From: Candidatus Odyssella thessalonicensis
GTDB taxonomy: Bacteria; Pseudomonadota; Alphaproteobacteria; Bin65
Reading direction: 5' to 3'
DNA length: 21,782 nt
Assembly: GCA_005240015.1 (NCBI GenBank)
Contig: SBBV01000237.1
Span: forward strand, 1 to 21,782
Shown: piece after piece, positions 2 to 21,782 of the stretch
How the letters are laid out: the number at the start of each line of letters is the position of its first letter
Position numbering within the stretch: the first letter of the stretch is position 1
Program-made: the position numbers and the translations under genes
Notes under the pieces: model-generated
What the model saw: the letters and a program-made list of their open reading frames with translations, nothing else
Databases searched by the model: none
Told to the model about the DNA's origin: nothing

Positions 2-1153
2 TCACGCGCGCGGCGCTTCCGCGTGCACGCGCTGCGCCGTCGGCGTTCTGCGCGTGCCCCAGCCGCGCAGGCGCCGGCGCAGCGGCTTTTCGACGTAGAG
101 ATAGGAGAGCGCGGAGAGCCCGAGCACCAGCGCGAAGTAGAGCGCGAAATCGAGGATGTTCAGCAGCTCGATGTCCAATTCGCGCGGCCCGTACCATTCC
201 CAATAGAAGCCGATCGGCTGGTGCAGCGCGTAGATCGAGTAGCTGATGTTGCCGAGGAACACGAGCGGCGCCGTCGAGAGCGCGCGATAGGCGAAGTGCC
301 CCCTCTGCGCGGCGCCCAGGATCAGGAGGCTGAAGAAGATCGCGAGCACCGCGTTCGAGCGGATGCGCGCGGGCAGATCTTCGAGGTCGGCGAACAGGAT
401 CATGAGGCCGACCGCGCCGACGGCGAACATCCAGCCGGCCAGGGCCGGGGAGGGCCGCGGGCCTTCGAGATGCATGCGCCCCAGCGCCACGCCGAGGATG
501 AACTGCGGCAGGTGAAACAGCGGGAAGAACTGCGCGAGGTTCCAGCCGTCGGGCCCTTGCTCGCCGATCGGCGCCATCACGACCACGCGGAACGCCGCCA
601 CCGCCACGACGAGGAGATAGGCGCCGGCCGCGAACGCGGTGCTCGAGACGAAGCGCTGCGCCCAGAGGATGAGCGGGAAGCTCAGATAGAGGAACCACTC
701 GACCGACACCGACCAGGCCGGCGGATTCCACGAGAGTGCGGAGGGTGGCCACCACGATTGCAGCGAGGTCAGCACCAGTACCGCGTGGGTCGAGAAGTCG
801 CGCGGGTTCTCCTCGTCGAGGAAGAAATAGGCGGCGACGAAGAACGGCAGCGCCAGCAGCAGCCCGAGATAATAGGCGGGCGCCAGCCGCGCGAAGCGCG
901 CCACGAAAAAGGCGCGCAGGTCGAGCTTCGGGCGCTCGCCGCCGGTGCCGAGATAGACGTAGCCGAGCACGAAGCCCGAGAGCACGAAGAAGAACGTGAC
1001 CGCGTCATAGCCCGTCTCCAGCCAGTTCTGCAGGAAATCGGGCATGCGCGTGAAGCGCTCGGGGTCGTAATGGAAGGCCACGACCACGGCGGCGGCGAAA
1101 AACCGGAGCGAGGTGAGGGGGAGGATGTCGGGGCGCTTGGCCGGGACGTGCAT
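2..1153 (-). CDS. Acyltransferase 3 family integral membrane protein (OafA/YrhL-like)
   Basis: This 383-residue polytopic membrane protein is predicted to transfer an acyl group, commonly acetyl or succinyl, onto a cell-surface glycan or lipid. Seen: an N-terminal LTSLRFFAA segment with the R-x10-H motif (R17, H28), FFFVLSGF at residues 54-61, many hydrophobic segments, the WSVSVEWFLYLSFP stretch, and a closing YVEKPLRRR typical of the family. The frame is open up to 1462, but the family homology starts at MHVPAKRPD, so I use the ATG at 1153; the upstream part would be unrelated and overlaps the TetR gene. A weak GAAG lies before this start. The stop codon is at 2-4, so the gene is complete. 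It is downstream of the TetR gene on the same strand after a 155-base gap. Its substrate cannot be told, and a link to the catabolic genes is not evident. Confidence 0.9.
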   Translation of the reverse strand: MHVPAKRPDILPLTSLRFFAAAVVVAFHYDPERFTRMPDFLQNWLETGYDAVTFFFVLSGFVLGYVYLGTGGERPKLDLRAFFVARFARLAPAYYLGLLLALPFFVAAYFFLDEENPRDFSTHAVLVLTSLQSWWPPSALSWNPPAWSVSVEWFLYLSFPLILWAQRFVSSTAFAAGAYLLVVAVAAFRVVVMAPIGEQGPDGWNLAQFFPLFHLPQFILGVALGRMHLEGPRPSPALAGWMFAVGAVGLMILFADLEDLPARIRSNAVLAIFFSLLILGAAQRGHFAYRALSTAPLVFLGNISYSIYALHQPIGFYWEWYGPRELDIELLNILDFALYFALVLGLSALSYLYVEKPLRRRLRGWGTRRTPTAQRVHAEAPRA

Positions 1154-1308
1154 TATGCAGCTTCGCTTTTGTGGGGGGCTCAGGCGCAAACTACGCGGTT
1201 CGGTGACGGCAGCAACGAGACTCTTGCGCGCGACCTGCCGCGTCCGAAGCTTGGAATACCGCATTTGCCCGGAAAATGGGCGGAGGAAATTGCCCGCACG
1301 GGTTATGA

Positions 1309-1980
1309 TTACGAGCGCCGCGCGGCGCGCGTTGCCCGCGCGCGCCGCGGTGGCGCCGGCGCGCCGAACAGTCCGCGCGCGACCAGGCGTGTGAATTCGT
1401 CCGCCACGCGATCCAGGCCGAACTCGGCCGCGGCGCGCGACCAGCGCGCCACGGTGTTGCACATGCCGAGGATGGCCAAGGTCGCGAGCTGCGCGTCGAT
1501 CGTCGCGGCGATCACGCCGCCGCGCTGGCCCTCCTCGATCAGCGCGCGCCAGAGCGCCTCGTACGCGTGCGCCTGGGCATCGAGCGGCCGGCGCAGCGAT
1601 TTCGGCAGGTCACGGCGCTGGAACAGGAAGGCGTGGACGTAGAAGCGCTGCTCGAGCATCGGCTCCAAGTGCGCGCGGATCGCGCGGCGCACCTTCTCCT
1701 CGACCGGCAGAGAGGCGGCATAGATGGCGCCGAGGCGTTCGACGAAGGCGGTGATGCCGGTGCGGCAGATCGCTTCCAGGATCGCGGTCTTGGAGGGGAA
1801 ATAGTAGTAGATCGCGGCCTGGCGCACGCCGAGGCGCGCCGCGATGTCGCGCATGCTGGCGCCGTGGAAGCCGCGCTCGGCGAACACGCCGGCCGCCGTC
1901 ATCAGGATTTCCTCGCGCCGCCGCGCGTGCCGTGTCTTCGGCCGCCCCGGCCCGCGCTTCAGGCGCGCGTGATCGGACAT
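1309..1980 (-). CDS. TetR/AcrR family transcriptional regulator
   Basis: This 223-residue protein has the TetR N-terminal DNA-binding domain. A basic arm (RGPGRPKTRHARRREEIL) leads into a helix-turn-helix with GASMRDIAARLGVRQAAIYYYF, about residues 40-62, followed by the usual FPSK.AIL.AI. The C-terminal ligand domain is divergent, as normal for TetR proteins. The gene is divergent from the RdhA-like gene at 2188. The perfect palindrome at 2148-2157 inside that gene's predicted promoter is the best candidate operator, so the likely role is repression of the 2188-5033 gene pair, relieved by a pathway substrate or its CoA thioester. The family call comes from sequence; the target and ligand are inferred. 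The tail (RRARATRAARRS) is low-complexity and basic. Confidence 0.93.
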   Translation of the reverse strand: MSDHARLKRGPGRPKTRHARRREEILMTAAGVFAERGFHGASMRDIAARLGVRQAAIYYYFPSKTAILEAICRTGITAFVERLGAIYAASLPVEEKVRRAIRAHLEPMLEQRFYVHAFLFQRRDLPKSLRRPLDAQAHAYEALWRALIEEGQRGGVIAATIDAQLATLAILGMCNTVARWSRAAAEFGLDRVADEFTRLVARGLFGAPAPPRRARATRAARRS

Positions 1981-1996
1981 GGGGGCAACACTAGAC

Positions 1997-2118
1997 CGTC
2001 ACCCTGAGCGAAGCGACACGGGACCGCGCGGCTGCAGCCGCGCTCTTTCCCGGCGGCGGGGACAACGGCGCGCCTGGAGGCGCGCGGTCCCAGATTCACC
2101 GCTTCGCTTGCGATGACG
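1997..2118. repeat. Palindromic repeat element, diverged copy
   Basis: The element is bounded by imperfect 19-bp inverted ends: CGTCACCCTGAGCGAAGCG at 1997-2015 and CGCTTCGCTTGCGATGACG at 2100-2118. Inside is a second, nested structure. GGGACCGCGC (2020-2029) pairs with GCGCGGTCCC (2082-2091), enclosing a perfect 16-bp palindrome CGCGGCTGCAGCCGCG (2027-2042) and a hairpin GCGCGCC-TGGA-GGCGCGC (2068-2085). The ends match the intact inverted repeat at 9173-9278, and the GGGACC core recurs near 20994. It has no coding capacity and looks like a non-autonomous REP- or MITE-like element parked between the TetR gene and the RdhA-like promoter. Confidence 0.75.
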
Positions 2119-2134
2119 AAAACCTGCAGCGCCC

Positions 2135-2162
2135 TTGCCATTTATTGAACGATCGTTAAATT
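2135..2162 (+). promoter_or_regulatory. Predicted sigma-70-type promoter of the RdhA-like gene
   Basis: A -35-like TTGCCA (2135-2140) and a -10-like TAAATT (2157-2162) are separated by 16 bases. This is the most AT-rich stretch in the neighbourhood and ends 25 bases before the ATG at 2188. A strong ribosome binding site, GGGGAAGGA, follows at 2170-2178. Predicted by eye only. Confidence 0.5.
2148..2157. promoter_or_regulatory. Palindromic operator candidate (AACGATCGTT)
   Basis: A perfect 10-bp palindrome, AACGATCGTT, sits between the predicted -35 and -10 elements of the RdhA-like gene, where bound protein would block RNA polymerase. TetR family operators are commonly short palindromes of this kind, and a TetR gene lies divergently next to it. 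The assignment to that regulator is inferred from position. Confidence 0.5.
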
Positions 2163-2187
2163 AATTGCGGGGGAAGGACACTATGCA

Positions 2188-3447
2188 ATGGCAGAGCCGG
2201 CACCCAATCGTCTGACACGCGAAAATCAGCCGACGAGCGAAGGCCCGTACCGCGCGAAAGGCTCGCCGCAGCGCGACCTGGACGCGGCGTGCGGCTTCGA
2301 GGTGCGCGACGATTTCGAGCGCTTCAATCAGTGCAACGACATCTACTCGCGCGCCCAGTGGGACGAGCGCGTCCGCTCGAAGAAGGCGATCGACTGGTTC
2401 AAGGGCATGTTCATCCCCGGCTTGGGCGCCCGCAACGCCGAGGGCTACGGCGTCAAGGACTTCGCGCTGCGCAACGCCGGATGGATGGGCACCAACCTCG
2501 TGATCCAGCGGAGCCTCGACCAGGACCGCGTCGACGCGTTCGGCGACTACATCCGCCCCTTCTCCGAGCCCAATCCCGACAAGATCGAGGTGCCCTCGCC
2601 GGCCGAGATGAGCGAGGAGATCAAGCGCGTCTCGCGCCTGTTCGGCGCCGACGGCGTCGGCATCACGGCCTACGATCCGCGCTGGCACTTCACCGACAAT
2701 TTCTCGATCAAGACGCTGACGCAGAAGCCCTATCGCTTCCCCGAGGATCTGCCCAACGTCATCGTCGTGATCACCGCAATGCACTACGAGGCGGTGAAGT
2801 GCTATCCCTCGGCCACCGCCGGCGTCGCGGTCGGGCACGGCTACTCGAAAGACTGCGAGCTCGTGCAGAGCATCGCCACCTACATCCTCAACCTCGGCTA
2901 TCGCGCGATCGCGTCGGTCAACGATTCGAGCCAAGCCATCCCCTACGCGATCCAGGCAGGCTTGGGCGAATACGGCCGCAACGGCCTGCTCATCACCAAG
3001 GATTTCGGCCCGCGCGTCCGCATCGGGCGCATCCACACCGACCTGCCGCTTACGCACGACAAGCCGATCCGCTTCGGCGTGCGCGAGTTCTGCGACACGA
3101 CCTGCCGGCGCTGCGCCGAAGCCTGCCCGCCGCAGGCGATCTCGCACGACGCGCCGACCGAGAGGGTGCCGACGCAGTCGCAGATGAAGGGGATCCGCAA
3201 ATGGCAGGTGGATCCCGAGCGCTGCTTCAAGTTCTGGACCAACCAGGGCACCGAATGCGGCATCTGCATGCGCGTCTGCCCCTACAACAAGGATGTTTCG
3301 CGCTGGTGGAAACGGCTCTATTACCGCTTCTGGCAGCGCCTGGCCGCGTCGCCGCTGAAGCGCGCGGCGCTCAAGCTCGACGTGGCCTTGGGCTTCGGCA
3401 AGCGCATGAAGCCCAGCGAATACTGGCGCCGGTTCCGCACGCGCTGA
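2188..3447 (+). CDS. Reductive dehalogenase-like (RdhA/QueG superfamily) corrinoid and two-[4Fe-4S] protein
   Basis: This 419-residue soluble protein has no Tat or Sec signal. Seen: a C-terminal double cluster-binding domain with C302-x3-C306-x2-C309-x3-C313-P and C346-x10-C357-x2-C360-x3-C364-P. The second includes CFKFW..QGTECGICMRVCPYNK, close to the C..FW...G..C..C..VCP pattern of reductive dehalogenases. Before it is AGLGEYGRNGLLITKDFGPR (257-276) followed by R...HTDLPL, the signature shared by RdhA and epoxyqueuosine reductase (QueG), which bind cobalamin. The extended N-terminus (about 1-130) is unlike QueG. Known family chemistry is corrinoid-dependent reduction of an aryl or vinyl halide, or of an epoxide. 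It lacks the fused flavin/ferredoxin reductase of aerobic catabolic RdhAs and no RdhB-like anchor gene is nearby, so its electron donor is unknown. The start is set by GGGGAAGGA at 2170-2178. The CoA ligase begins 26 bases after its stop. Confidence 0.78.
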   Translation: MAEPAPNRLTRENQPTSEGPYRAKGSPQRDLDAACGFEVRDDFERFNQCNDIYSRAQWDERVRSKKAIDWFKGMFIPGLGARNAEGYGVKDFALRNAGWMGTNLVIQRSLDQDRVDAFGDYIRPFSEPNPDKIEVPSPAEMSEEIKRVSRLFGADGVGITAYDPRWHFTDNFSIKTLTQKPYRFPEDLPNVIVVITAMHYEAVKCYPSATAGVAVGHGYSKDCELVQSIATYILNLGYRAIASVNDSSQAIPYAIQAGLGEYGRNGLLITKDFGPRVRIGRIHTDLPLTHDKPIRFGVREFCDTTCRRCAEACPPQAISHDAPTERVPTQSQMKGIRKWQVDPERCFKFWTNQGTECGICMRVCPYNKDVSRWWKRLYYRFWQRLAASPLKRAALKLDVALGFGKRMKPSEYWRRFRTR

Positions 3448-3473
3448 CCGGGCCGGCGCCGAGGTCGCGCCTC

Positions 3474-5033
3474 ATGCAGACGAATCTGGTGCGCGCGCTC
3501 CGCGCCGTGATCCGCCACAACGGCCTGCGCCCCGCCATGCTCGACGTGGCGAAGAGCTACAGCTGGAGGGAGTTCGGCGAACGCGTCGGGCGCGGGGCCG
3601 GCGCACTGCAGGCGCAAGGAGTCGGCGCCGGTGCGCGCTTCGCGGTGCTGGCGCGCAACGGCTTCCGCTTCGAGGAGCTGAAATGGGCCGGCTTCTGGCT
3701 CGGCGCGATTCCGGTGCCGATCAACTGGCGCCTGGCGCCGCCCGAGATCGCGGCGCTGCTCGAGGATTCGGGCGCGGTGGCGCTGCTGATCGAAAATCAT
3801 TTCCAGGGTGTGCTCGATCATGCGGCGATGAGCGCGTGGAAAAGCAAGGCGATCCTGATCGGCGACGTCGCGGGACCGACCCTCGGCGCCTATGAGGAGA
3901 TGCTGGCGCGCGCCGCACCGCCGTCGCCCGCCGATCCCGCGCCCGACGACGACGCGATGCTGATCTACACCGGCGGCACCACGGGGCGCAGCAAGGGCGT
4001 GCGCCTCACCCACGCCAACATCATTGCCAACGCGATGGCATTCGGCCTCGCGATCGGCGCGCGCCGCGAGCAGACCTATCTCCACGCGGCGCCGATGTTC
4101 CACTCGGCCGATCTGCTGGCAATGGGCTGGTTCCTGCAGGGTGCCGCGCAATGCTTCCTGCCGGCGTTCTCGCCCACGGCGTTCCTCGAGGCGATCCAGC
4201 AGTTCCGCGTCGGCGCCGTCGTGACGGTGCCGACGATGCTGGTCGCGACGGTGTCCGATCCCAATTTCGTCAAATTCGATCTCTCGAGCCTCAAGACGCT
4301 GATCTACGGCGCGGCGCCGATGGCGATCGAATGGATCGAGCGCGTGGCCAAGGCGTTTCCCGCGGTCAACTTCTCGAACAGCTACGGCCTCACCGAGACC
4401 GCGCCCGATCTCACCGTGTTCGATCCCTTGGAATTCCGCGCCGCGATCGAGCGCGCGGCCGCAACCGGCGACCGCTCGGGTCCGCTCACCTCGGTCGGCA
4501 AGCCCAATGCGGGCAACGAGATCAGCATCGTCACACGCGAGGGCCGCGAGGCGAAGCCGGGCGAGGCGGGCGAGCTCATCGCGCGCGGGCCCAACATCAT
4601 GAAAGGCTATTGGAACCGGCCTGAAGAAACGGCGGCCGCGCTCAAGGATGGCTGGCTCCACACCGGCGATATCGCGCGCATCGACGAGGACGGCTACGTC
4701 TATCTGCTCGACCGCTTGAAGGACATGGTGATCACCGGCGGCGAGAACGTCTATTCGTCGGAAGTGGAGGCGGTGCTGCATCGGCACCCGGCCGTAGCCG
4801 AGGCGGCCGTCATCGGCGTGCCCGACGAGCGCTTGGGCGAAACCGTCATGGCCGTGATCGTGCCGAAGCCTGCCACGGCGCCGAACCAAGAAGAAATCGC
4901 GCAGCACTGCCGCCAGTTCCTGGGCGGCTACAAGATTCCGCGCCGCTTCGCCTTCGTCGAGCGCCTGCCGCGCAGCGCCATGGGCAAGGTGCTGAAGACC
5001 GAACTTCGCAAGTCATATGCCGGAACGCGGTAG
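3474..5033 (+). CDS. AMP-forming acyl-CoA synthetase (class I adenylate-forming ligase)
   Basis: This 519-residue protein is predicted to activate a carboxylic acid to its CoA thioester by way of an acyl-adenylate. Motifs seen: the P-loop-like YTGGTTGRSKG from residue 165, NSYGLTETAPD, GWLHTGDIARIDEDGYVYLLDRLKD with ITGGENVYSSEVE, and the C-terminal LPRSAMGK with K505 as the expected catalytic lysine. The length is normal for fatty-acid or aryl-CoA ligases. The ATG at 3474 is 26 bases after the RdhA-like stop, so the two genes are almost certainly one transcript. The acyl substrate cannot be read from sequence alone; context suggests the acid handled by the neighbouring redox protein. The gene ends 54 bases from the convergent AraC gene. 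Confidence 0.92.
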   Translation: MQTNLVRALRAVIRHNGLRPAMLDVAKSYSWREFGERVGRGAGALQAQGVGAGARFAVLARNGFRFEELKWAGFWLGAIPVPINWRLAPPEIAALLEDSGAVALLIENHFQGVLDHAAMSAWKSKAILIGDVAGPTLGAYEEMLARAAPPSPADPAPDDDAMLIYTGGTTGRSKGVRLTHANIIANAMAFGLAIGARREQTYLHAAPMFHSADLLAMGWFLQGAAQCFLPAFSPTAFLEAIQQFRVGAVVTVPTMLVATVSDPNFVKFDLSSLKTLIYGAAPMAIEWIERVAKAFPAVNFSNSYGLTETAPDLTVFDPLEFRAAIERAAATGDRSGPLTSVGKPNAGNEISIVTREGREAKPGEAGELIARGPNIMKGYWNRPEETAAALKDGWLHTGDIARIDEDGYVYLLDRLKDMVITGGENVYSSEVEAVLHRHPAVAEAAVIGVPDERLGETVMAVIVPKPATAPNQEEIAQHCRQFLGGYKIPRRFAFVERLPRSAMGKVLKTELRKSYAGTR

Positions 5034-7182: not shown

Positions 7183-9153
7183 ATGGCCCGTGGACTGACG
7201 CGCGAGCAGGTGGGTGTGACGGAAGAGATGATCGCCACGTTCGGCGACATCGTCTTCCGCATGAGCCACAATTACCAGGAGCGCACCGGCGATCCGGTCA
7301 GGAAGCTCGATTGGGCCGAGATCGAGCGCCAGAAGGAGGACATGGGGCTCACCGATCAGCAGATCGCTGACAAGCTGGGGCTCACGCGCAACCAGGTGCT
7401 GTTCATCCGCACGATCGAGGAGCGGCGCCGCTTCCGCACGGGCCACCATGCGCGCCTTTTGGAGCTCGGCGGCGGCAAGCGCTTCCGCGCCGAGCGGATG
7501 ACGCCCGCGCTCGACCATTTCCGCTACAGCGAGAGCGCCCTGGCGCTGCGGGCCGCGCTGCGCTTCGATCCCGAGCGCGCGCGCGAATATGTGCGCCGCG
7601 GCTGGTGGCGCGACGACACGCTCCCGAAATGGCTCGCGCGCCACGCCGCCGAGCGGCCCGAGGCGCCGGCGCTGATCCACGCCGGCAGGGCGATCTCGTG
7701 GAAGGAGCTCGCCGAGAAGGTCGCGCGCCTTGCCGGAGCGCTGCATCGCGCGGGCGTCGCCGCCGGCGACGTGGTGGCGGCGCAGCTGCCCAACGTTCCC
7801 GAGTTCGTCGTCGCCTATCTCGCGGTCTGCCGGCTCGGCGCCGTGCTCTCGACCATGCACATGCCCTATCGCGCGGCCGAGATCGAGAACCTGCTCGCGC
7901 ACAACAAGGCGGTGGCCGCGATCGTGCCGTCGGAGGGGAAAGAGTTCCGCCCCGCCGAAGCGGTGCTGGCCTTGCGCGCGCGGCTGCCGCAGCTCAAGGC
8001 CGTCATCGCCCATGGCGCGAAAATCGAGGGCGCGTTCGTGCTCGGCGAGATGATCGACCAATCGCCGCCGCTCGACGATGACGCGGTGACGCCGCCGGTC
8101 GCGGCCGATCCATTTCTCTTGCTCTACACCTCGGGCACGACCGCGGCGCCCAAGGCAGTTCCGCACAACTACCACACGCTGCTCGCGAACGCGCGGCTCG
8201 GTGCGCCCGAGCACGGCATCACCGCTGGCGATCGCGTGCTCTCGGCGGCGCCGTTCACGCACCTGTTCGGGCTCTACAGCGTGCATGTCGCAATGGCGGT
8301 GGGCGCGGCGATGGTGCTGCTGCCGGCCTTCACGCCGGCTGACCTCGCCGCCACGATCGCGCGCGACAAGCCGACCGCGCTCTGGACCGCGCCGGCGCAT
8401 TTCGCCGCGCTGCGCGCGCAGGACCTCGTCGCCAAGCACGATTTCTCCTCGCTCAAGATGATGATCATGTCGGGCAGCGCCTGCCCGCCCGATCTCGTGC
8501 ACTGGACCGCGGCGCAGCTCGCGAACTGCGCCGTCACGCAACTTTGGGGCATGACCGAGACGCAAGGTGCGCTCTACACGCGCCCCGGCGATTCCATCGA
8601 GATCGCGGCCAATAGCGCCGGGCGCCCGAGCCCCGGCACCGAGGTTCGCATCGTCGATGCCGAGGGGCGGCCGTGTCCGCCCGGCGAGGAGGGCGAGCTG
8701 CAGGTGCGCGGCTGCCTGCTTTTTCCGGGCTTCGTCAACAACGCGGCCGCCAACGAGGCGAGCTTCACCGCCGACGGCTGGTACCGCACCGGCGATCTCG
8801 CCACCGCCGATGCCGCCGGCAACGTCGCGATCACCGGCCGCAGCAAGGACGTCATCAACCGCGGCGGCGTGAAGTTCAACCCGCGCGACGTCGAGGATTT
8901 GCTCGACGCGCATCCCCAGATCCTGCAATCCGCGATCGTGCCGATGCCGGATCGGGTGCTCGGCGAGCGCGCCTGCGCGTTCGTCACACTGCGCCCCGGC
9001 GCCGCCGCGCCGACGTTGGACGAGCTCTGCGCCTATCTACTCGGAAAGAGCATCGCCAAGCTCAAGCTGCCCGAGCGCCTCGTCGTCGTCGCGGAGATGC
9101 CGCTGACGCCGACGCGGAAGATCATCAAGGGCAAGCTGCGGCTCCCCGGCTAG
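7183..9153 (+). CDS. Acyl-CoA ligase with N-terminal HTH-like extension
   Basis: This 656-residue protein is about 105 residues longer than usual. The C-terminal 550 residues form an AMP-dependent ligase resembling cyclohexanecarboxylate/aryl-CoA ligases. Motifs are YTSGTTAAPK (315-324), LWGMTETQGA (454-463), GWYRTGDLATADAAGN (532-547) with GRSKDVINRGG, and PLTPTRK with K646 as the likely catalytic lysine. The usual Gly before that lysine is Arg. Residues 1-105 form an extra domain. LTDQQIADKLGLTRNQVLFI (56-75) looks like a helix-turn-helix, followed by basic ERRRFRTGHHARLLELGGGKRFR. An internal ATG at 7498 would give a standard-length ligase, but the frame upstream is open and no good ribosome site precedes 7498, so a fusion is preferred. 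The ATG at 7183 has only a weak purine-rich site before it. Confidence 0.88.
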   Translation: MARGLTREQVGVTEEMIATFGDIVFRMSHNYQERTGDPVRKLDWAEIERQKEDMGLTDQQIADKLGLTRNQVLFIRTIEERRRFRTGHHARLLELGGGKRFRAERMTPALDHFRYSESALALRAALRFDPERAREYVRRGWWRDDTLPKWLARHAAERPEAPALIHAGRAISWKELAEKVARLAGALHRAGVAAGDVVAAQLPNVPEFVVAYLAVCRLGAVLSTMHMPYRAAEIENLLAHNKAVAAIVPSEGKEFRPAEAVLALRARLPQLKAVIAHGAKIEGAFVLGEMIDQSPPLDDDAVTPPVAADPFLLLYTSGTTAAPKAVPHNYHTLLANARLGAPEHGITAGDRVLSAAPFTHLFGLYSVHVAMAVGAAMVLLPAFTPADLAATIARDKPTALWTAPAHFAALRAQDLVAKHDFSSLKMMIMSGSACPPDLVHWTAAQLANCAVTQLWGMTETQGALYTRPGDSIEIAANSAGRPSPGTEVRIVDAEGRPCPPGEEGELQVRGCLLFPGFVNNAAANEASFTADGWYRTGDLATADAAGNVAITGRSKDVINRGGVKFNPRDVEDLLDAHPQILQSAIVPMPDRVLGERACAFVTLRPGAAAPTLDELCAYLLGKSIAKLKLPERLVVVAEMPLTPTRKIIKGKLRLPG

Positions 9154-9316: not shown

Positions 9317-10027
<711 letters not shown>

Positions 10028-10050
10028 GCCTACGCGCCTATGAACCGATC

Positions 10051-10143
10051 GATGGCAAAAAAGGGGTCAGACCCCTTTTCACGTTTGCCATCGGCACCTT
10101 GCCCCCGTCGGCGAGGCCAAAAAGGGGTCTGACCCCTTTTTTG
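10051..10143. repeat. Paired GGGGTC palindromes between livG and livF
   Basis: Two copies of an AAAAGGGGTC-N-GACCCCTTTT palindrome lie in opposite orientation, at about 10057-10079 (central A) and 10119-10143 (central T). The first is itself flanked by an inverted repeat, GATGGCAAA (10051-10059) and TTTGCCATC (10084-10092). Each copy ends in a T-run on both strands, so each could form an intrinsic-terminator-like hairpin within the liv transcript. Similar AAAAGGGGTCAGACCCCTTTT repeats are common in proteobacterial genomes as REP-like elements (recalled, not searched). Confidence 0.85.
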
Positions 10144-10172
10144 CGATAAGTCATCGCGTGGGCGCGTTGGCA

Positions 10173-10914
<742 letters not shown>

Positions 10915-10922
<8 letters not shown>

Positions 10923-13282: not shown

Positions 13283-14473
13283 TTACAAGCGCTTATCGGC
13301 CGGGCACTTCTCCCAGTACGCGTCCTTTTGGTTTCGGTAGATCGTGCCGCGCGTGACGATCGTGGGCTTGCCGTCCGCACCCTTCACGACTTCGCGCAGG
13401 TAGAAGTTCTGAATCGGCATGCCGTTGACGTTGTAGGTGTAGGGACCGCGCGCCGAATCGTACTTGGCCTTGCGGATCGCGCGGGCCAGGGCCGGCCCGT
13501 CCTGGAACTTGCCCCCGGCTGCCTTCAGCCCGGCGGCGATGATGCGGGCACCGTCATAGGCCTGGGCCGCGTAGTGCGAGGGATTGCGGCCATAGGCGGC
13601 GACGAAGTCCTTCACGTAGGCCTTGTTGGTCGGGTTATCGAGGTCGACGTTCCAGTACATCGTGTGATAGGTGCCGAGCGCCGCGTCGCCGATCGCGGGC
13701 AGCGTCGACCAGTCGACCGTGAACGCCGTGTAGAGCTTGATGGTCTTGCCGGCGCCCGACGCCTGCCAGTTCTTGAAGAACGCGACGCCCATGCCGCCGG
13801 GTGCGAACAGGAACACGGCCTTGGCGCCCGAAGCGCGCACCTTCGAGATGCTCGCCTGGTGGTCGGTCTCGCCGAGCTTGAAGTAGTCCTCGCCGATGAT
13901 CTTCGGGCCTTTCAACGTGCGCTTGACGCCCGCCACCATGTCCTTGCCCGCCTGGTAGTTGGGCGCGAGCATGTAGATCGATTCGATCTTGTCCCGGTTC
14001 ATGCGCTCGCCGAGCGCCTCGGGAACCTGGTCGTTGTTCCACGACGTCGAGGTCAGCAGCGGATTGCACATCTCGCCCGCGAACTGCGACGCGCCGGCAT
14101 TGGTGATGACGTAAGGGATGTTCTTGGCGATCGCCTTGGGATAGACCGCGAGCGCCACGTTCGACCAGATGATGCCGGCCAGCACGTTCACCTTCTCCTG
14201 GTCGAGCAGCTTCTCGGCCTCGCGCACGCCGGCGTCGGTCTTCTGCTGGTCGTCGCCCCAGATCACCTTGGTGGGCACGCCGGCGAACTTGTCGCCGTCC
14301 TTGGTCCAGCCTTCGTGCTTGAGGCCGATGGTGAAGCCCTTCTGCAGCTCGGTGCCCGGCCCGGCGCCGGGGCCCGACAGCGTCGTGATCACGCCGAGCT
14401 TGAACTCCTGCGCCGAAGCCGTCGCCATTCCCGCCGCCAGCGCCGTGCCGGCGAGCAAAACGATTCTCAGCAT
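13283..14473 (-). CDS. Periplasmic solute-binding protein of Liv-type ABC transporter (receptor 1)
   Basis: This 396-residue secreted receptor is of the Peripla_BP_6 (LivJ-like) family. A signal peptide runs to about residue 21 (ASA before QEFKLGV) and has no lipobox, so the protein is soluble in the periplasm. The LGVITTLSGPGA start, GDDQQKTDAGVREAEKLL, FAPGGMGVAFFKNW and YNVNGMPIQNFYLREVVKG are shared with the two receptors upstream. Only two cysteines remain in the mature protein, in GEMCNPLL and in the C-terminal EKCPADKR, and probably form a disulfide. GGAGGA precedes the ATG at ideal spacing. It is the receptor nearest livHMGF and has its own strong predicted promoter (14620-14647). Ligand unknown; family members bind amino acids, aromatic acids or amides. 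Confidence 0.93.
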   Translation of the reverse strand: MLRIVLLAGTALAAGMATASAQEFKLGVITTLSGPGAGPGTELQKGFTIGLKHEGWTKDGDKFAGVPTKVIWGDDQQKTDAGVREAEKLLDQEKVNVLAGIIWSNVALAVYPKAIAKNIPYVITNAGASQFAGEMCNPLLTSTSWNNDQVPEALGERMNRDKIESIYMLAPNYQAGKDMVAGVKRTLKGPKIIGEDYFKLGETDHQASISKVRASGAKAVFLFAPGGMGVAFFKNWQASGAGKTIKLYTAFTVDWSTLPAIGDAALGTYHTMYWNVDLDNPTNKAYVKDFVAAYGRNPSHYAAQAYDGARIIAAGLKAAGGKFQDGPALARAIRKAKYDSARGPYTYNVNGMPIQNFYLREVVKGADGKPTIVTRGTIYRNQKDAYWEKCPADKRL

Positions 14474-14733: not shown

Positions 14734-15927
14734 TCAAACCCGCTTGTCGGCCGGGCACTGCTGCCAGTAGGCGTCCTTGTGATTGGTGAACACGGTGCGC
14801 ACCGTCTTGATCATCGGCTTGCCGTCGCCGCCCTTCACCACCTCGCGCAGATAGAAATTTTGAATCGGGATGCCGTTCACGTTGTACTGGTAGTCGCCGC
14901 GGATCGACGGATACTTCGCCTTGCGCATCGCCTTCATCAGGGCGAGCACGTCCTCGGTCTTGCCGTTCACGGCCTTCAGCCCGGCCGCGATCAGCGCCGG
15001 CGCATCGTAGGATTGCGCCGCGAAATGCGACGGGCGGTGGCCGAACTTGGCGACATAGGCCTTGAAGAACTTCTGGTTCGCCGGATTGGGGTCCTCCGGG
15101 TTCCAGTAGTTCGTATGGTAGCTGCCGAGTGCTGCTTCGCCGATCGGGCCGAGCGTCAGGTAGTCGACCGTGAACACGGTGTAGAGCCTCACCTCCTTGC
15201 CCGCGCCCGAGGCCGCCCACTGCCGCATGAACGCGACGCCCATCCCGCCGGGCGCAAAGATGAAGAGCGCGTCCGGCTTGGCCGCGCGAATCTTGGAGAT
15301 GTCGGCCTGGAAGTCGGCCTCGTTCACCTTGTAGAGCGTGGTGTCGATGATCTTGCCGGTGCCTTTGTAGAAGCGTTGGAAGCCGGCGAGCATGTCCTTG
15401 CCGGCCTGGTAGTTGGGCGCCATCAGCCAAATCGACCTGAACTTCTCCTCGGTCATGACCTGGCCCATCGCCTCGGGCGTCTGGTCGTTGTTCCACGAGG
15501 TCGAGATGAAGTACGGCGAACACTTGGCGCCGGCCATCGGCGAGGCGCCGGCGTTGGTCGAGAGCACGCCCACCTTGTTGTCGATCGCGTATTGCTGGAC
15601 CGTCATCAGCACGTGCGACCAGATGTTGCCGGCGATGATGTGGACCTTGTGGTTGCCCACCATCTTCTGCGCTTCGGCCAGACCCACCTCGGGCTTCGAC
15701 TGATCGTCGCCGTAGAAGATCTTGGTCGTGACGCCGCCGAGCTTGTCGCCGTCCTTCATCCAACCCTGGTGCTCGAGGCCGAGCTTCCAGCCGTTCACCT
15801 GATGAGCGCCGATGATGGCCTGAGGGCCGCTCGTCGTGCTCATGTAGCCGAGGCGCAATTCCTGCGCCGACGCCGATGCAGCGGCGAGCGCGAGCGCGCC
15901 GCCGCAAAGCAATGCCAGCCTAAGCAT
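14734..15927 (-). CDS. Periplasmic solute-binding protein of Liv-type ABC transporter (receptor 2)
   Basis: This 397-residue paralogue of receptor 1 has a signal peptide to about residue 21 (SASA before QELRLGY). Family features seen: YMSTTSGPQAIIGAHQVNGW, the KLGLEHQGWMKDGDKLGG stretch, YGDDQSKPEVGLAEAQKM, FIFAPGGMGVAFMRQW and SYDAPALIAAGLKAVNG. Mature cysteines are in GAKCSPYF and in QQCPADKR, at the same places as in receptors 1 and 3. GGGAGG stands before the ATG. It is separated from receptor 1 by a 260-base gap holding a hairpin and the receptor 1 promoter, so it may be a separate transcript or read through. It has no permease genes of its own, so it presumably delivers to LivHMGF. Ligand unknown. 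Confidence 0.93.
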   Translation of the reverse strand: MLRLALLCGGALALAAASASAQELRLGYMSTTSGPQAIIGAHQVNGWKLGLEHQGWMKDGDKLGGVTTKIFYGDDQSKPEVGLAEAQKMVGNHKVHIIAGNIWSHVLMTVQQYAIDNKVGVLSTNAGASPMAGAKCSPYFISTSWNNDQTPEAMGQVMTEEKFRSIWLMAPNYQAGKDMLAGFQRFYKGTGKIIDTTLYKVNEADFQADISKIRAAKPDALFIFAPGGMGVAFMRQWAASGAGKEVRLYTVFTVDYLTLGPIGEAALGSYHTNYWNPEDPNPANQKFFKAYVAKFGHRPSHFAAQSYDAPALIAAGLKAVNGKTEDVLALMKAMRKAKYPSIRGDYQYNVNGIPIQNFYLREVVKGGDGKPMIKTVRTVFTNHKDAYWQQCPADKRV

Positions 15928-16139: not shown

Positions 16140-17333
16140 TCAAATACGCTTATTCGCCGGGCACTTCTCCCAATAGGCGTCCTTGTGATCGAAGATCTTC
16201 GCGACGCCCTTGATCGCCGGCTTACCGTCGGCGCCCTTGACCACCTCCAGGCGCCAGTAGGGCTGCAAGACCATGCCGTTGACGTTGAACGTGATCGTGC
16301 CGCGCGGCGAATCCATCGTGCCTTTGCGGATCGCCTTGGCGACCGCGGCCATGTCGTCGGTCTTGCCGCCGACCGCCTTCATGCCCTTGGCGATGAGCGC
16401 GGGCGCATCGTAGGACTGCACCGCGAAGTAGGACGGCATGTGGCCGAACTTCGCCATGTAGTCCTTCACGAAGCGCTTGTTCTTCTCGTTGTCGAGATCG
16501 GGATTCCAGTGACTCGCCTCGATGGCGCCGATCGCGGCTTCGCCGATCGCCGGGATCGTCAGGCCGTCGACGGTGTAGATCGAATAGAGCTTGATCTCCT
16601 TGTTGAGGCCGGAGGCCACCCACTGCTTCATGAACGCGATGCCCATGCCGCCCGGCGCGAAGATGTAGAGCGCCTGGGGCTTGGCCGCGCGCACCTTGGC
16701 GAGATCCGCCTGGAAGTCGCTCTCGCCGATCTTGAACAGGATCTGATCGACGACCTTGCCGCTCTTGAACGTGCGCATGAAGCCGTTCACGTTGTCCTTG
16801 CCGGCCTGGTAATTGGGCGCCATCGCGACCACGGTCTTGATGCCGTCCTTGGTCGCCATCACGCCGGTCGCCTCGGCGTTGCCGTCGTTCATGAACGACG
16901 ACGAGGTGAACAGCGGGTTGCAGAGCTCGCCGGCGAGCGGCGAGGGCCCGGCGTTGGCGCTCAGGATCATCACCTTCGCGTCGAAGACGGGCTTCTGGAT
17001 CGTCATCATCACGTTCGACCAGATGATGCCGCTCACGATGTGGACCTTGTCCTGCTTCAGGAACTTGTCCACTTCCCTCAATCCGATTTCGGGCTTCTGC
17101 TGGTCGTCGGCGTAGAAGATCTTGGTCGGCACACCGCCGAGCTTGTCGCCGTCCTTTTTCCAGCCGGCATGCTCGAGGCCGAGCACCCAGCCGTTCATCA
17201 GGTGCTTGCCGATGATGGCCGAGCCGCCGGTCAAGGTGTTGAGGAAGCCGATGCGCAATTCCTGCGCGCCGGCGTTCTGCGCCGCGACGAGAGCCGCCGC
17301 AGCAATGGCGGCCGCCAATGTCGATTTCTGCAT
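16140..17333 (-). CDS. Periplasmic solute-binding protein of Liv-type ABC transporter (receptor 3)
   Basis: This is a 397-residue Peripla_BP_6 receptor. I place the start at the ATG at 17333, not the in-frame TTG two codons upstream, because GGGAGGA ends 7 bases before this ATG. The signal peptide MQKSTLAAAIAAAALVAAQ ends near AGA before QELRIGF. Seen: LNTLTGGSAIIGKHLMNGW, VLGLEHAGWKKDGDKLGG, YADDQQKPEIGLREVDKFL, FAPGGMGIAFMKQW and FNVNGMVLQPYWRLEVVKG. The last differs from IQNFYLREVVKG of receptors 1 and 2, so its ligand may differ. Cysteines are in GELCNPLF and EKCPANKR. It is probably the first gene of the minus-strand series and is followed by a strong hairpin, so it may be a separate transcript. 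It is divergent from the Rieske gene. Confidence 0.93.
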   Translation of the reverse strand: MQKSTLAAAIAAAALVAAQNAGAQELRIGFLNTLTGGSAIIGKHLMNGWVLGLEHAGWKKDGDKLGGVPTKIFYADDQQKPEIGLREVDKFLKQDKVHIVSGIIWSNVMMTIQKPVFDAKVMILSANAGPSPLAGELCNPLFTSSSFMNDGNAEATGVMATKDGIKTVVAMAPNYQAGKDNVNGFMRTFKSGKVVDQILFKIGESDFQADLAKVRAAKPQALYIFAPGGMGIAFMKQWVASGLNKEIKLYSIYTVDGLTIPAIGEAAIGAIEASHWNPDLDNEKNKRFVKDYMAKFGHMPSYFAVQSYDAPALIAKGMKAVGGKTDDMAAVAKAIRKGTMDSPRGTITFNVNGMVLQPYWRLEVVKGADGKPAIKGVAKIFDHKDAYWEKCPANKRI

Positions 17334-17401
17334 GTTCAAGTCCTCCCTCGCTGGCGCTCGTATCGATCGCGTGATCGCGTCCGCTCGAGCGCAGCTTCGA
17401 A

Positions 17402-18640: not shown

Positions 18641-20581
18641 TCAACGGTGCAGGTGGGTCGCGGAGCGCTGTACCGCCGGCGTGCGGCGCATGGTTTCGAC
18701 CTCGCGCCGGAATGATTCCGGATCCGTCCACCGGGGGCTCCGGACGCCGGGATGCCAGAGCGCCCGCAAGGCTCCGGCCTGATCGATCAGCAGCTCGGTC
18801 CCCTCGATCTGGTCACGGCCCCTGTAGATCGCGAGAACCTGCGCCAGGTTCGCGTCGTCGGCCACGCAGAATGCCGGGTCCGGCGGAGGTGCGGCATCCT
18901 GCGCAACCAAGATCGTCACGACGTCGGCCGCTCTGGCGCGCTCGGACAAGCGTGCAATCTGTTCAGTGCCGTTCGCGCCGGAAACGACTACATGGATGAC
19001 ACGCCCGCGCAGCGCATCAGAGGCGAGCGCCGCGCCATCGGGACACCGGAGAGAGAAGCTCGGCGCCGGATAAGCGATGCGGCGCGCGGTGCCGGCGAAG
19101 GCGCCCAGGCGCGTGCCGTCGATGTTGGCGTAGAGGAAATCGATCAGGTTCCAGACCGAATCCTCGTCGATGACGCGCGCAAACCCAGGCATCGCGCCGC
19201 CGATGCCCTGCGTGATCCACCAATACAGATCGCCGACGGTGTGCGCGTAGATGTGGCCGCTGACGAGATCGCTCGGTTTCACCCTTGCCGGGACCGCCGC
19301 CGGCCCGTCCCCCCGGCCGGTGGGACCGTGGCAGCTGGAGCAGTGTTGCGCGAATAAGTGGCGACCCCGTGCAATCGAGGCCGTCGTGTACCCGGTCGGC
19401 GACGCATAGAACGAGGTCGGGTAGGCCTCGGTAAGCATGTCGCCGAGGCCGCGGCCGAAGTAGGCGACGACGGCGGCGCCGCCGAGGATCATCACCCATC
19501 GCAACTTGCGCCAGAACAGGCCGGAGACGGCAAGTGCCATGCCGAGCGCGGTCATGCCGATCGCGGTCAGCACCCGCGGGCCCAGTTCCGGATGGTCGAA
19601 GATCTCGGCGCTCACGCGGAACGGCAGCGGCCAGTTCGGCTGCGTGTGCAAGGCAGGCGGCAAAGTGCCGAGCGCGCCCACGATCACGAATATGATCAGC
19701 CCCAATCCGATCTCGAGCGCACTGTTCCGGATAAGCTGACGCCGGGCGTTGCCGGGCGCGCCGGAGAGCGGCTGCGAGAGCCGCGGCGTCAATCGCAGAC
19801 GGTTGACGGCGGCCACCGAGAGCATAGCGCCGAAGAGAGCGATCTTGATCAGCAGCAGGCGGCCGTAGTCGGTGCCGAGCAGCGCGGGCAAGCTTCCTGC
19901 AAGCATCCAGGTATTGACGGTGCCGGTGCCCAGCAGAATCAGCACGCCGACAATTCCGAGCGTCGAGAAGCGCAACGTCGCGATGCGCGCGATGTGGTCC
20001 CAGGTTCGATCGGCACGTCGGCGCGCCGTCGCCAACAGCATCGCGAGCGCGACCAGGCTCCCGAGCCATGTGCCGGCAGCTAGGAGATGGAGCGCGTCGG
20101 CGACGACATGAAGATGCCCCGCAAGGCGCTCGGTCGCTGCCGCGTGACCGGTCCAGGCCAGCGCGCCGAGCAAGCCTGCGGCCAGCAACGGTGCGGCCCA
20201 GCGCGCCCAGAGTCGCGATCCGAAGTAAGAGAGGGAAACGCCCAGCAGGACGGCCAGAACCAGGCGAATGTCGGAGGCAAGCCCGAACGTGGTGCGGGTC
20301 AGGACTGTCCTCAGGACACCTTCCGCGATCGCGTCGCGGAGCGGTCGACCGCTCATCTTCGCGGCCTCGAGCATGACCCAGGCCGCGCCCGAGACAACTG
20401 CCGCCGCGAGGCCGATCGCCGCGATGCGCACAGCCCGGCGTCGGTATTCGCTCGCGGCGAGATCGGCCCCGGCGGCGCGAAAGGCTGGGCCCGCCACCAG
20501 CACCAAGAACGCCATCACGCCCACGGTCATGGCCGTGGCGGCAAAATGGACCGCGCGAACGGCAAAGATGGGATCGTTCAC
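18641..20581 (-). CDS. CopD-domain membrane protein fused to cytochrome c and a thioredoxin-like tail
   Basis: This 646-residue protein has three parts. Residues 1-310 form a CopD-type copper-resistance membrane domain with many helices (HFAATAMTVGVMAFLVLVAG, WTGHAA, HLHVVADALHLLAAGTWLGSL, RFSTLGIVGVLILLGTGTVNTW). Two further membrane segments, about 335-375, lead to a periplasmic class I cytochrome c domain with C414-S-S-C417-H418 and likely axial M464 (GGAMPGF). The tail, about 503-620, begins YPAPSFSLRCPDG, like peroxiredoxin/thioredoxin folds, but has no CxxC. The start is GTG at 20581 with GGGAGA in front; no nearby ATG fits. It follows copC after 39 bases. Roles known for the family are copper uptake or delivery to periplasmic enzymes; coupling to electron transfer is suggested by the haem domain but is inferred. 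Confidence 0.88.
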   Translation of the reverse strand: MNDPIFAVRAVHFAATAMTVGVMAFLVLVAGPAFRAAGADLAASEYRRRAVRIAAIGLAAAVVSGAAWVMLEAAKMSGRPLRDAIAEGVLRTVLTRTTFGLASDIRLVLAVLLGVSLSYFGSRLWARWAAPLLAAGLLGALAWTGHAAATERLAGHLHVVADALHLLAAGTWLGSLVALAMLLATARRRADRTWDHIARIATLRFSTLGIVGVLILLGTGTVNTWMLAGSLPALLGTDYGRLLLIKIALFGAMLSVAAVNRLRLTPRLSQPLSGAPGNARRQLIRNSALEIGLGLIIFVIVGALGTLPPALHTQPNWPLPFRVSAEIFDHPELGPRVLTAIGMTALGMALAVSGLFWRKLRWVMILGGAAVVAYFGRGLGDMLTEAYPTSFYASPTGYTTASIARGRHLFAQHCSSCHGPTGRGDGPAAVPARVKPSDLVSGHIYAHTVGDLYWWITQGIGGAMPGFARVIDEDSVWNLIDFLYANIDGTRLGAFAGTARRIAYPAPSFSLRCPDGAALASDALRGRVIHVVVSGANGTEQIARLSERARAADVVTILVAQDAAPPPDPAFCVADDANLAQVLAIYRGRDQIEGTELLIDQAGALRALWHPGVRSPRWTDPESFRREVETMRRTPAVQRSATHLHR

Positions 20582-21067: not shown

Positions 21068-21708
21068 TCAGATCCGCTTGTCCGCCGGGCACTTCTCGGT
21101 GTTGGTGTCGGGGCGCTCCCAGATCTTGCTCTCGATCTTCAAGCCCGGCTTGCCGTCGCCGCCTTTCACCACCACGGCCTTGTAGAAAGGCTGGATGGGA
21201 AAGCCGTTGACGTTGTACTTCAGGTTGCCGCGCACCGAGTCGAGCGGGGCCTTGCGCATCGCGCGCGCCAGCACCGCCGTATCGTCGACCTTGCCGCCGG
21301 TCGCCTTCAAGCCCGCCGCGATCACGGCCGGCGCGTCGTAGGACTGCGCCGCGAAGTTCGACGGCATGTGGCCGTACTTGGCCACATACTCCTTGACGAA
21401 CTTCTCGTTGCGCGGATTGGCGACGTCGTGGTTCCACATCGTCGGCACGATCGCGCCCACGGCCGCATCGCCCATGGCGCCGAGCGTCACGTAGTCGATC
21501 GAGAACGCCGTGTAGAGCTTCATCTCCCTGTTGAGGCCGCTCGCCGACCATTGCTTGACGAACGCGATGCCCATCGGTCCGGGTGCGAACGCGAACACGG
21601 CCTCGGGCTTCAACGAGCGCACCTTGGCGAGCTCCGCCTGGAAGTCGGTCTCGCCGAGCTTGTAGTAGATCGTCTCGAGCACCTTGCCTTTGTAGAAGCG
21701 GTGGAAGC
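21068..21708 (-). CDS. Fourth Liv-type receptor, C-terminal half, broken at an inverted junction
   Basis: The last 210 or so residues of a Peripla_BP_6 receptor are present: FHRFYKGKVLETIYYKLGET, FAFAPGPMGIAFVKQW, SYDAPAVIAAGLKATGG, YNVNGFPIQPFYKAVVVKG, and the shared end EKCPADKRI. All parts are collinear with receptors 1-3 until F-H-R, where homology stops. Upstream in this frame there is a TGA and no start, because the next bases are a receptor N-terminus in the opposite orientation. The N-terminal half, with signal peptide and first cysteine, is therefore missing. The gene is probably intact in the organism and broken here by an assembly or amplification chimera; a true inversion is the alternative. 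GPMG replaces GGMG of the other receptors. Confidence 0.85.
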
Positions 21709-21782
21709 TCGGCCTTGCGCATCAGGGCTGGATGAAGGACGGCGACAAGCTCGCCGGCGTTCCGACCCGGATCTTCTACGCC
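21702..21782 (+). CDS. Receptor N-terminal fragment in opposite orientation, cut by the window end
   Basis: Twenty-seven codons on the plus strand read WKLGLAHQGWMKDGD, then KLAGVPTRIFYA, matching the region about residues 45-72 of receptor 2 (KLGLEHQGWMKDGDKLGG). There is no start and the frame runs off the window. It shares TGGAAGC (21702-21708) with the minus-strand fragment. Most simply, it is the missing N-terminal part of the same fourth receptor, flipped. Confidence 0.8.

Follow-up and report, generated by a model that had tools for sequence, protein, structure and literature searches.

The 21,782-nucleotide stretch analysed here (contig SBBV01000237.1 of Candidatus Odyssella thessalonicensis, hereafter the window) carries a gene for an RdhA-family protein, P0001, and directly after it a gene for an AMP-forming acyl-coenzyme A (CoA) ligase, ACS1. 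An earlier reading of the letters alone (the original prediction) had described P0001 as a cytoplasmic reductive dehalogenase-like protein without a reductase partner or membrane anchor, tightly linked to the ligase. We found that P0001 is very likely a stand-alone RdhA, which on the evidence of its sequence likely acts as a catabolic reductive dehalogenase, and that the linkage to an acyl-CoA ligase is conserved among its close relatives. The features that carry these findings are the following.

2188..3447, + strand: RdhA-family protein P0001, 419 amino acids, predicted soluble cobalamin / 2x[4Fe-4S] reductive-dehalogenase-type enzyme
2842..3021, + strand: putative active-site triad codons Tyr219 (2842-2844), Asn245 (2920-2922) and Arg278 (3019-3021), from alignment
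3091..3129, + strand: first [4Fe-4S] motif CDTTCRRCAEACP, C302-DTT-C306-RR-C309-AEA-C313-P, that is, CX3CX2CX3CP
3223..3282, + strand: second [4Fe-4S] motif CFKFWTNQGTECGICMRVCP, read directly, with cysteines C346, C357, C360 and C364
3474..5033, + strand: AMP-forming acyl-CoA ligase ACS1, 519 amino acids, PF00501 at 248.5 bits

The reading frame at 2188-3447 (+) is open, and its G+C fractions at the three codon positions (GC1/2/3 = 0.59/0.47/0.90) are coding-like. P0001 scored 186.1 bits (E 1.4e-54) against the TIGR02486 RdhA profile, exceeding the curated cut-off of 160.35 bits, and PceA was its PDB sequence match (E 3e-55). The Pfam RdhA family PF13486 gave 14.6 bits on P0001, below its gathering cut-off of 24.3; many of the relatives that were listed at no more than 64% identity carry this domain. 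A single RdhA core spans the predicted P0001 model, and the fold is shared with PceA (PDB 8q4h, 4uqu) across nearly the full length. Homologues of P0001 numbered 2586 proteins at E <= 0.001, out of 5728 candidates.

Active sites were compared in an alignment of P0001 with two RdhAs, one from Sulfurospirillum and one from Dehalococcoides, with BhbA and two other fused catabolic RdhAs, and with one QueG. At the positions of Tyr219, Asn245 and Arg278, the Sulfurospirillum RdhA also has Tyr/Asn/Arg and the Dehalococcoides RdhA has Tyr/Gln/Arg. By contrast, BhbA and the other two fused enzymes have Tyr, then Val or Ala, then Lys where P0001 has Arg278, and QueG has Arg/Ala/Tyr. We take the Tyr/Asn/Arg triad to be the catalytic residues of PceA, and an active-site Tyr accompanied by Arg or Lys to mark the PceA or NpRdhA type; P0001 has this combination. 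All three residues, together with Asp246, were invariant in 59 of 59 aligned relatives, and the eight Fe-S cysteines of the Sulfurospirillum RdhA are likewise present in P0001. PDB titles among the structural matches mention a K488Q variant of NpRdhA and, for QueG, the Asp134 catalytic loop.

Both [4Fe-4S] motifs and GLGEYGRNGLLI, which the original prediction had pointed out, can be read directly in P0001. The first motif keeps its four cysteines, but it is one residue longer than the canonical CX2CX2CX3CP described in the part of PMC6797604 that we consulted. Counting P0001 itself, the list of 120 homologues divides at this place into 57 with CX3C and 63 with CX2C; the former are at least 70% identical to P0001 and the latter at most 72%. 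In a tree of 81 rows, all 15 CX3C rows formed one group with a support of 100/100. In these sequences the one-residue insertion marks one clade, and it looks new. All four cysteines of the second motif, a CX2CX3CP with an upstream Cys, were invariant in the 59 relatives.

As predicted, P0001 looks cytoplasmic. It has no twin-arginine translocation (Tat) signal, its only twin arginines lying at 307 and 414, and no membrane helix, the highest 19-residue Kyte-Doolittle mean being 1.0; the N-terminal transmembrane helices of the transmembrane hybrid RdhA, as described in the same part of PMC6797604, are absent. An RRx[FLVI] string occurs within the first 60 residues in seven of these 120 homologues, but because the top hydropathy mean among all 120 was 1.54, we do not read these strings as Tat signals. 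At 419 residues, P0001 carries neither a fused reductase nor a second, N-terminal copy of the B12 domain, and none of the window open reading frames (ORFs) scanned with Pfam encodes a reductase or ferredoxin. In these respects P0001 differs from BhbA and NpRdhA (PDB 4ras): both enzymes retain a duplicated, vestigial B12 domain, to which BhbA adds a reductase domain. The predicted absence of an adjacent rdhB also held at the locus, where the divergent TetR gene and the ligase, 26 bp after RdhA, leave no room for one; this rests on the neighbouring genes of the locus, as neither an RdhB model nor a search of the wider genome was used. By contrast, a Tat signal and an RdhB anchor are features of respiratory RdhAs (PMC6797604, in the part consulted).

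The original prediction set P0001 apart by its lack of both anchor and fused reductase; that this lack is unusual in itself is not supported. According to the portion of PMC13101508 consulted, Ros_A3X954 of Roseobacter sp. MED193 is a Tat-less reductive dehalogenase that debrominates 2,6-dibromophenol, and the characterized Pararhodobacter triiodophenol enzyme A0A2T7UTL8, 72% identical to it, is also Tat-less. PMC10463259, as far as consulted, distinguishes four RdhA subfamilies, the catabolic ones bearing a vestigial duplicated B12 domain, and mentions a clade of catabolic RdhAs without a reductase domain. One relative in our set, L079, is a single-domain protein of 389 amino acids that is 45% identical to P0001 and has both Ros_A3X954 Fe-S motifs at the reported positions 283 and 337; it is likely, from these motifs, an orthologue of Ros_A3X954. 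With Ros_A3X954 and the single-domain L079 as precedents, the missing anchor and reductase of P0001 represent a known type. The two systems are not identical, however: Ros_A3X954 has the canonical CX2C first motif and acts on a free bromophenol, and within 1.9 kb of RdhA no acyl-CoA ligase lies on the same strand in the rhodobacterial relatives L078-L083.

The comparison of profiles also upheld RdhA over QueG. QueG (PDB 5d08, 5d6s) has the B12 and 4Fe-4S core in common with P0001, and some sources label relatives of P0001 as QueG. P0001 matched the QueG profile TIGR00276 weakly, however, at 50.2 bits against a curated cut-off of 200; its triad residues differ, and the structural overlap is about half, so we rejected QueG as its identity. 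In the tree, P0001 falls on the stand-alone side with L079, our proxy for Ros_A3X954, but the basal forks are open and the single QueG row attaches on this side as well; because that row has a branch length of 6, the tree is no help on this question. Taken together, it is most improbable that P0001 reduces epoxyqueuosine in tRNA as QueG does, or that it is a paralogue of such an enzyme.

The tight link to an acyl-CoA ligase proved real. The ATG of ACS1 lies at 3474, 26 bp past the RdhA stop, and from this gap we infer that the two genes are co-transcribed. We then counted same-strand AMP-forming ligases within 1.9 kb of 76 RdhA-type genes from the window and fetched loci, after dropping two duplicate loci. 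A ligase was linked to RdhA at 12 of the 13 loci whose RdhA is at least 53% identical to P0001, compared with 1 of 28 at 41-52% identity and 4 of 35 below 40%; the flank on one side fell short of 1.9 kb at 3 of the 13 close loci and at 18 of the remaining 63. The ligase density in seven genomes leads to a chance expectation of approximately 0.02-0.05 ligases per locus. Three of the five ligase queries had been picked as RdhA neighbours, which favours detection of those ligase types. The linked loci span six genera and three families (f1, f8 and f217); the count is by locus, with 6 of the 13 being species of one genus, and by lineage six genera are linked and one lineage (L002) is not. The CX3C clade enters the count with three loci only (the window, L001 and L002), two of them linked.

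Three ligase types, with a mutual identity of 26-33%, occupy the linked place. The ACS1 type occurs in the window and in genomes G001 and G017 (63-80% identical), the G017 copy lying upstream rather than downstream of RdhA; the counterparts adjoining RdhA are 80% identical to ACS1 in L001 and 62-63% in L041. The best PDB matches of ACS1 were a fatty-acyl-CoA synthase and a feruloyl-CoA synthetase (297 bits). A second type stands beside 8 of the 13 RdhAs. We searched its member from the sister-clade locus L044, to which the other seven are 70-95% identical, and its best solved relative was 4-chlorobenzoate:CoA ligase (PDB 3cw8) at 387 bits, with the next at 224; ACS1 is just 27-28% identical to this type. 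The third type is the ligase of L003, where an acyl-CoA dehydrogenase intervenes between ligase and RdhA. At the same locus (976-4270), two divergent QueG/RdhA-like genes lie directly upstream of RdhA, which is followed by the acyl-CoA dehydrogenase, the ligase and a thiamine pyrophosphate (TPP) enzyme. Contig C295 of the source genome carries a fourth type (23-38% identical to the others); it comes immediately after a remote RdhA paralogue (29% identity), with 28 bp between the aligned parts, and a similar pair occurs in G001 (L088). Since dissimilar ligases fill the same place, the linkage argues for a functional tie rather than mere inheritance. Conserved linkage of close RdhA relatives to an acyl-CoA ligase looks new: among the matches listed from open-licence full-text literature, supplements aside and as far as these texts were consulted, there was no report of an RdhA gene adjoining a CoA ligase.

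With moderate confidence, we favour the explanation that P0001 is a soluble, catabolic, stand-alone reductive dehalogenase coupled to CoA activation. The presumed co-transcription of RdhA with an acyl-CoA ligase points to a halogenated carboxylic acid, aromatic or of a similar kind, or to the CoA thioester of such an acid, as the probable substrate, and the linkage supports a locus that appears built around CoA activation of an acid. We infer a scheme in which cobalamin, bound in the RdhA core as Co(I), removes the halogen; Tyr219 would act as proton donor, and Arg278 and Asn245 would steady the substrate. The two [4Fe-4S] clusters would then re-reduce the cobalamin, fed by a general cellular ferredoxin or flavodoxin system. 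P0001 would thus serve carbon use rather than respiration, and the neighbouring importer may take up the acid. This explanation is supported by the intact PceA triad at positions where the residues of QueG differ; by the linkage at 12 of 13 loci against 0.02-0.05 expected per locus; by the match of the eight-locus ligase type to 4-chlorobenzoate:CoA ligase, together with the relation of the second ligase in the window, ACS2, to aryl-acid adenylating enzymes; by L079, which has the motifs of the debrominating Ros_A3X954 and is 45% identical to P0001; and by a cobalamin riboswitch found in the source genome. Across the window itself, no Rfam family reached its gathering score.

Several observations weigh against this explanation. 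Dehalogenase activity of CX3C-clade members is so far a reading of their sequences, and no cognate electron donor was found among the window ORFs near RdhA. The 13 kb of L002, a CX3C member, contain no ligase, which shows that the enzyme can do without this neighbour; L078-L083 lack a same-strand ligase within 1.9 kb as well, and Ros_A3X954 acts on a free phenol. Moreover, ACS1 is closest to feruloyl and fatty-acyl ligases rather than to the 4-chlorobenzoate ligase, the L003 ligase is closest to malonyl-CoA synthetase, and ligases are common, with 35-71 PF00501 matches per genome in the seven genomes. The concentration of close loci in one genus (6 of 13) points in the same direction.

One possible alternative, which we consider a serious contender though short of an even chance, is that P0001, like Ros_A3X954 and BhbA, takes the halogen off a phenol or phenolic acid in its free form, and that the ligase activates only the dehalogenated product or another acid, so that no thioester is dehalogenated. 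Specificity for ortho-halogenated phenols is ascribed to the catabolic RdhAs characterized up to 2023 (PMC10463259, in the part consulted). The activity of Ros_A3X954 on 2,6-dibromophenol and the absence of a ligase from L002 also speak for this alternative; varied ligases would fit if many products feed in. However, the linkage is clade-specific (12 of 13 compared with 1 of 28), and one ligase type resembles the activator of an acid that is still halogenated. In the 4-chlorobenzoate pathway as known, the step that follows CoA ligation is a hydrolysis, not a reduction. It is also conceivable, but unlikely, that P0001 is an RdhA-fold reductase that uses Co(I) chemistry to cleave another bond of an acyl-CoA (C-O, C-S, an epoxide or an activated double bond) with no dehalogenation at all. 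QueG provides a case of non-halogen chemistry within the superfamily, the L003 locus also encodes an acyl-CoA dehydrogenase and a TPP enzyme, and Asp246, next to Asn245, is invariant in all 59 relatives where the Sulfurospirillum reference has Gly. By contrast, invariance of the PceA triad speaks for dehalogenation, as does the tree, in which P0001 shares its side with L079, the likely orthologue of an enzyme proven to debrominate.

If dehalogenation coupled to CoA activation is correct, RdhA chemistry would be joined to CoA activation in several alphaproteobacterial lineages, and the ligase neighbours of the close relatives hint at a little-known breakdown route for halogenated acids. To our knowledge, no genes have yet been named for the reductive removal of halogen from halogenated aromatic acyl-CoA esters; the locus would provide concrete candidates on which to test this reaction.

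The remaining main features of the window are listed below.

1309..1980, - strand: TetR-family regulator, divergent from RdhA (PF00440, PF17932), 87% identical and in the same place in L001
5088..6002, - strand: AraC-family regulator with a cupin domain (PF12852, PF12833), 90% identical in L001
6158..7075, + strand: QLP (P0121), 305 amino acids, predicted RdhA/QueG-fold Fe-S protein, previously unrecognized
7183..9153, + strand: second ligase, ACS2, 656 amino acids, PF00501 at 278.6 bits
9317..17339, - strand: ATP-binding cassette (ABC) importer of the branched-chain-amino-acid type, with two ATPases, two permeases and three tandem binding proteins (PF00005, PF02653, PF13458)

QLP and ACS2, like the extra Fe-S residue, go beyond the original prediction, and the presence of a second RdhA/QueG-fold protein and a second ligase in an RdhA locus looks new. 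The top structural match of QLP was NpRdhA, tied with QueG. QLP is rare, because among 398 phylum-wide genomes a search at E 1e-80 matched its own genome alone, and it had no plasmid homologues. It was present in 11 of 385 genomes, including all six with RdhA at E 1e-140, a count that assumes the same 385 genomes in both draws and is uncorrected for kinship (four of the six are one family). ACS2 has an N-terminal extension of approximately 140 residues (to about 7600) with a helix-turn-helix-like stretch, for which PF13384 reached only E 0.06; of 8 loci searched, 7 keep the extension at 49-66%, and in the other one the contig ends too early. ACS2 may thus be an AMP-ligase fused to a DNA-binding domain. 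The best PDB match of its ligase part was a salicylate-AMP ligase, and its nearest relatives are aryl-acid adenylating enzymes.

A more speculative proposal, to which we give little weight, is a two-component CoA-dependent system in which a halogenated (aryl) acyl-CoA, formed by the ligase, is dehalogenated as the thioester by the CX3C RdhA, with QLP as the partner. Under the same slim odds for the whole, QLP might relay electrons or stand in, in trans, for the vestigial B12 domain of NpRdhA. Such a system would put genes to the reductive dehalogenation of halogenated acyl-CoA esters. Both the Fe-S insertion and QLP offer checkable handles on electron delivery to soluble RdhAs without a fused reductase.

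RdhA at E 1e-60 was found in 7 of 398 genomes drawn in the same way: its own and six of family f23, which we guess from the Ros motifs to be Rhodobacteraceae or similar. When weak QueG-like matches are included, P0001 had 7 to 17 matches per genome in G001, G002, G004, G010 and G017, and a first look at G575 gave 21 RdhA/QueG-type candidates. In G004, RdhA-type genes occur in tandem pairs (L061 1222-3529 and L099 4950-7105). L012, titled Euryarchaeota, has RdhA and a flanking layout almost as in the Gemmatimonadales loci L004-L007, indicating a mis-binned contig or a recent transfer.

The importer ATPases (9317-10922) have counterparts of 70-73% identity 5-8 kb from RdhA in L040, L046 and L047, and we would guess that the importer belongs to the RdhA system; it fits uptake of an organic acid, although such importers are common and this one gives no clue to which acid. 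Around it, the reverse strand encodes four paralogous periplasmic binding proteins (13283-14473, 14734-15927, 16140-17339 and 21071-21721), the last a piece with 55-57% identity to the other three. Several window ORFs without a Pfam family resemble antisense frames by their GC3. A 644-amino-acid protein at 18644-20575 (-) joins a CopD-type membrane domain to a cytochrome c domain.
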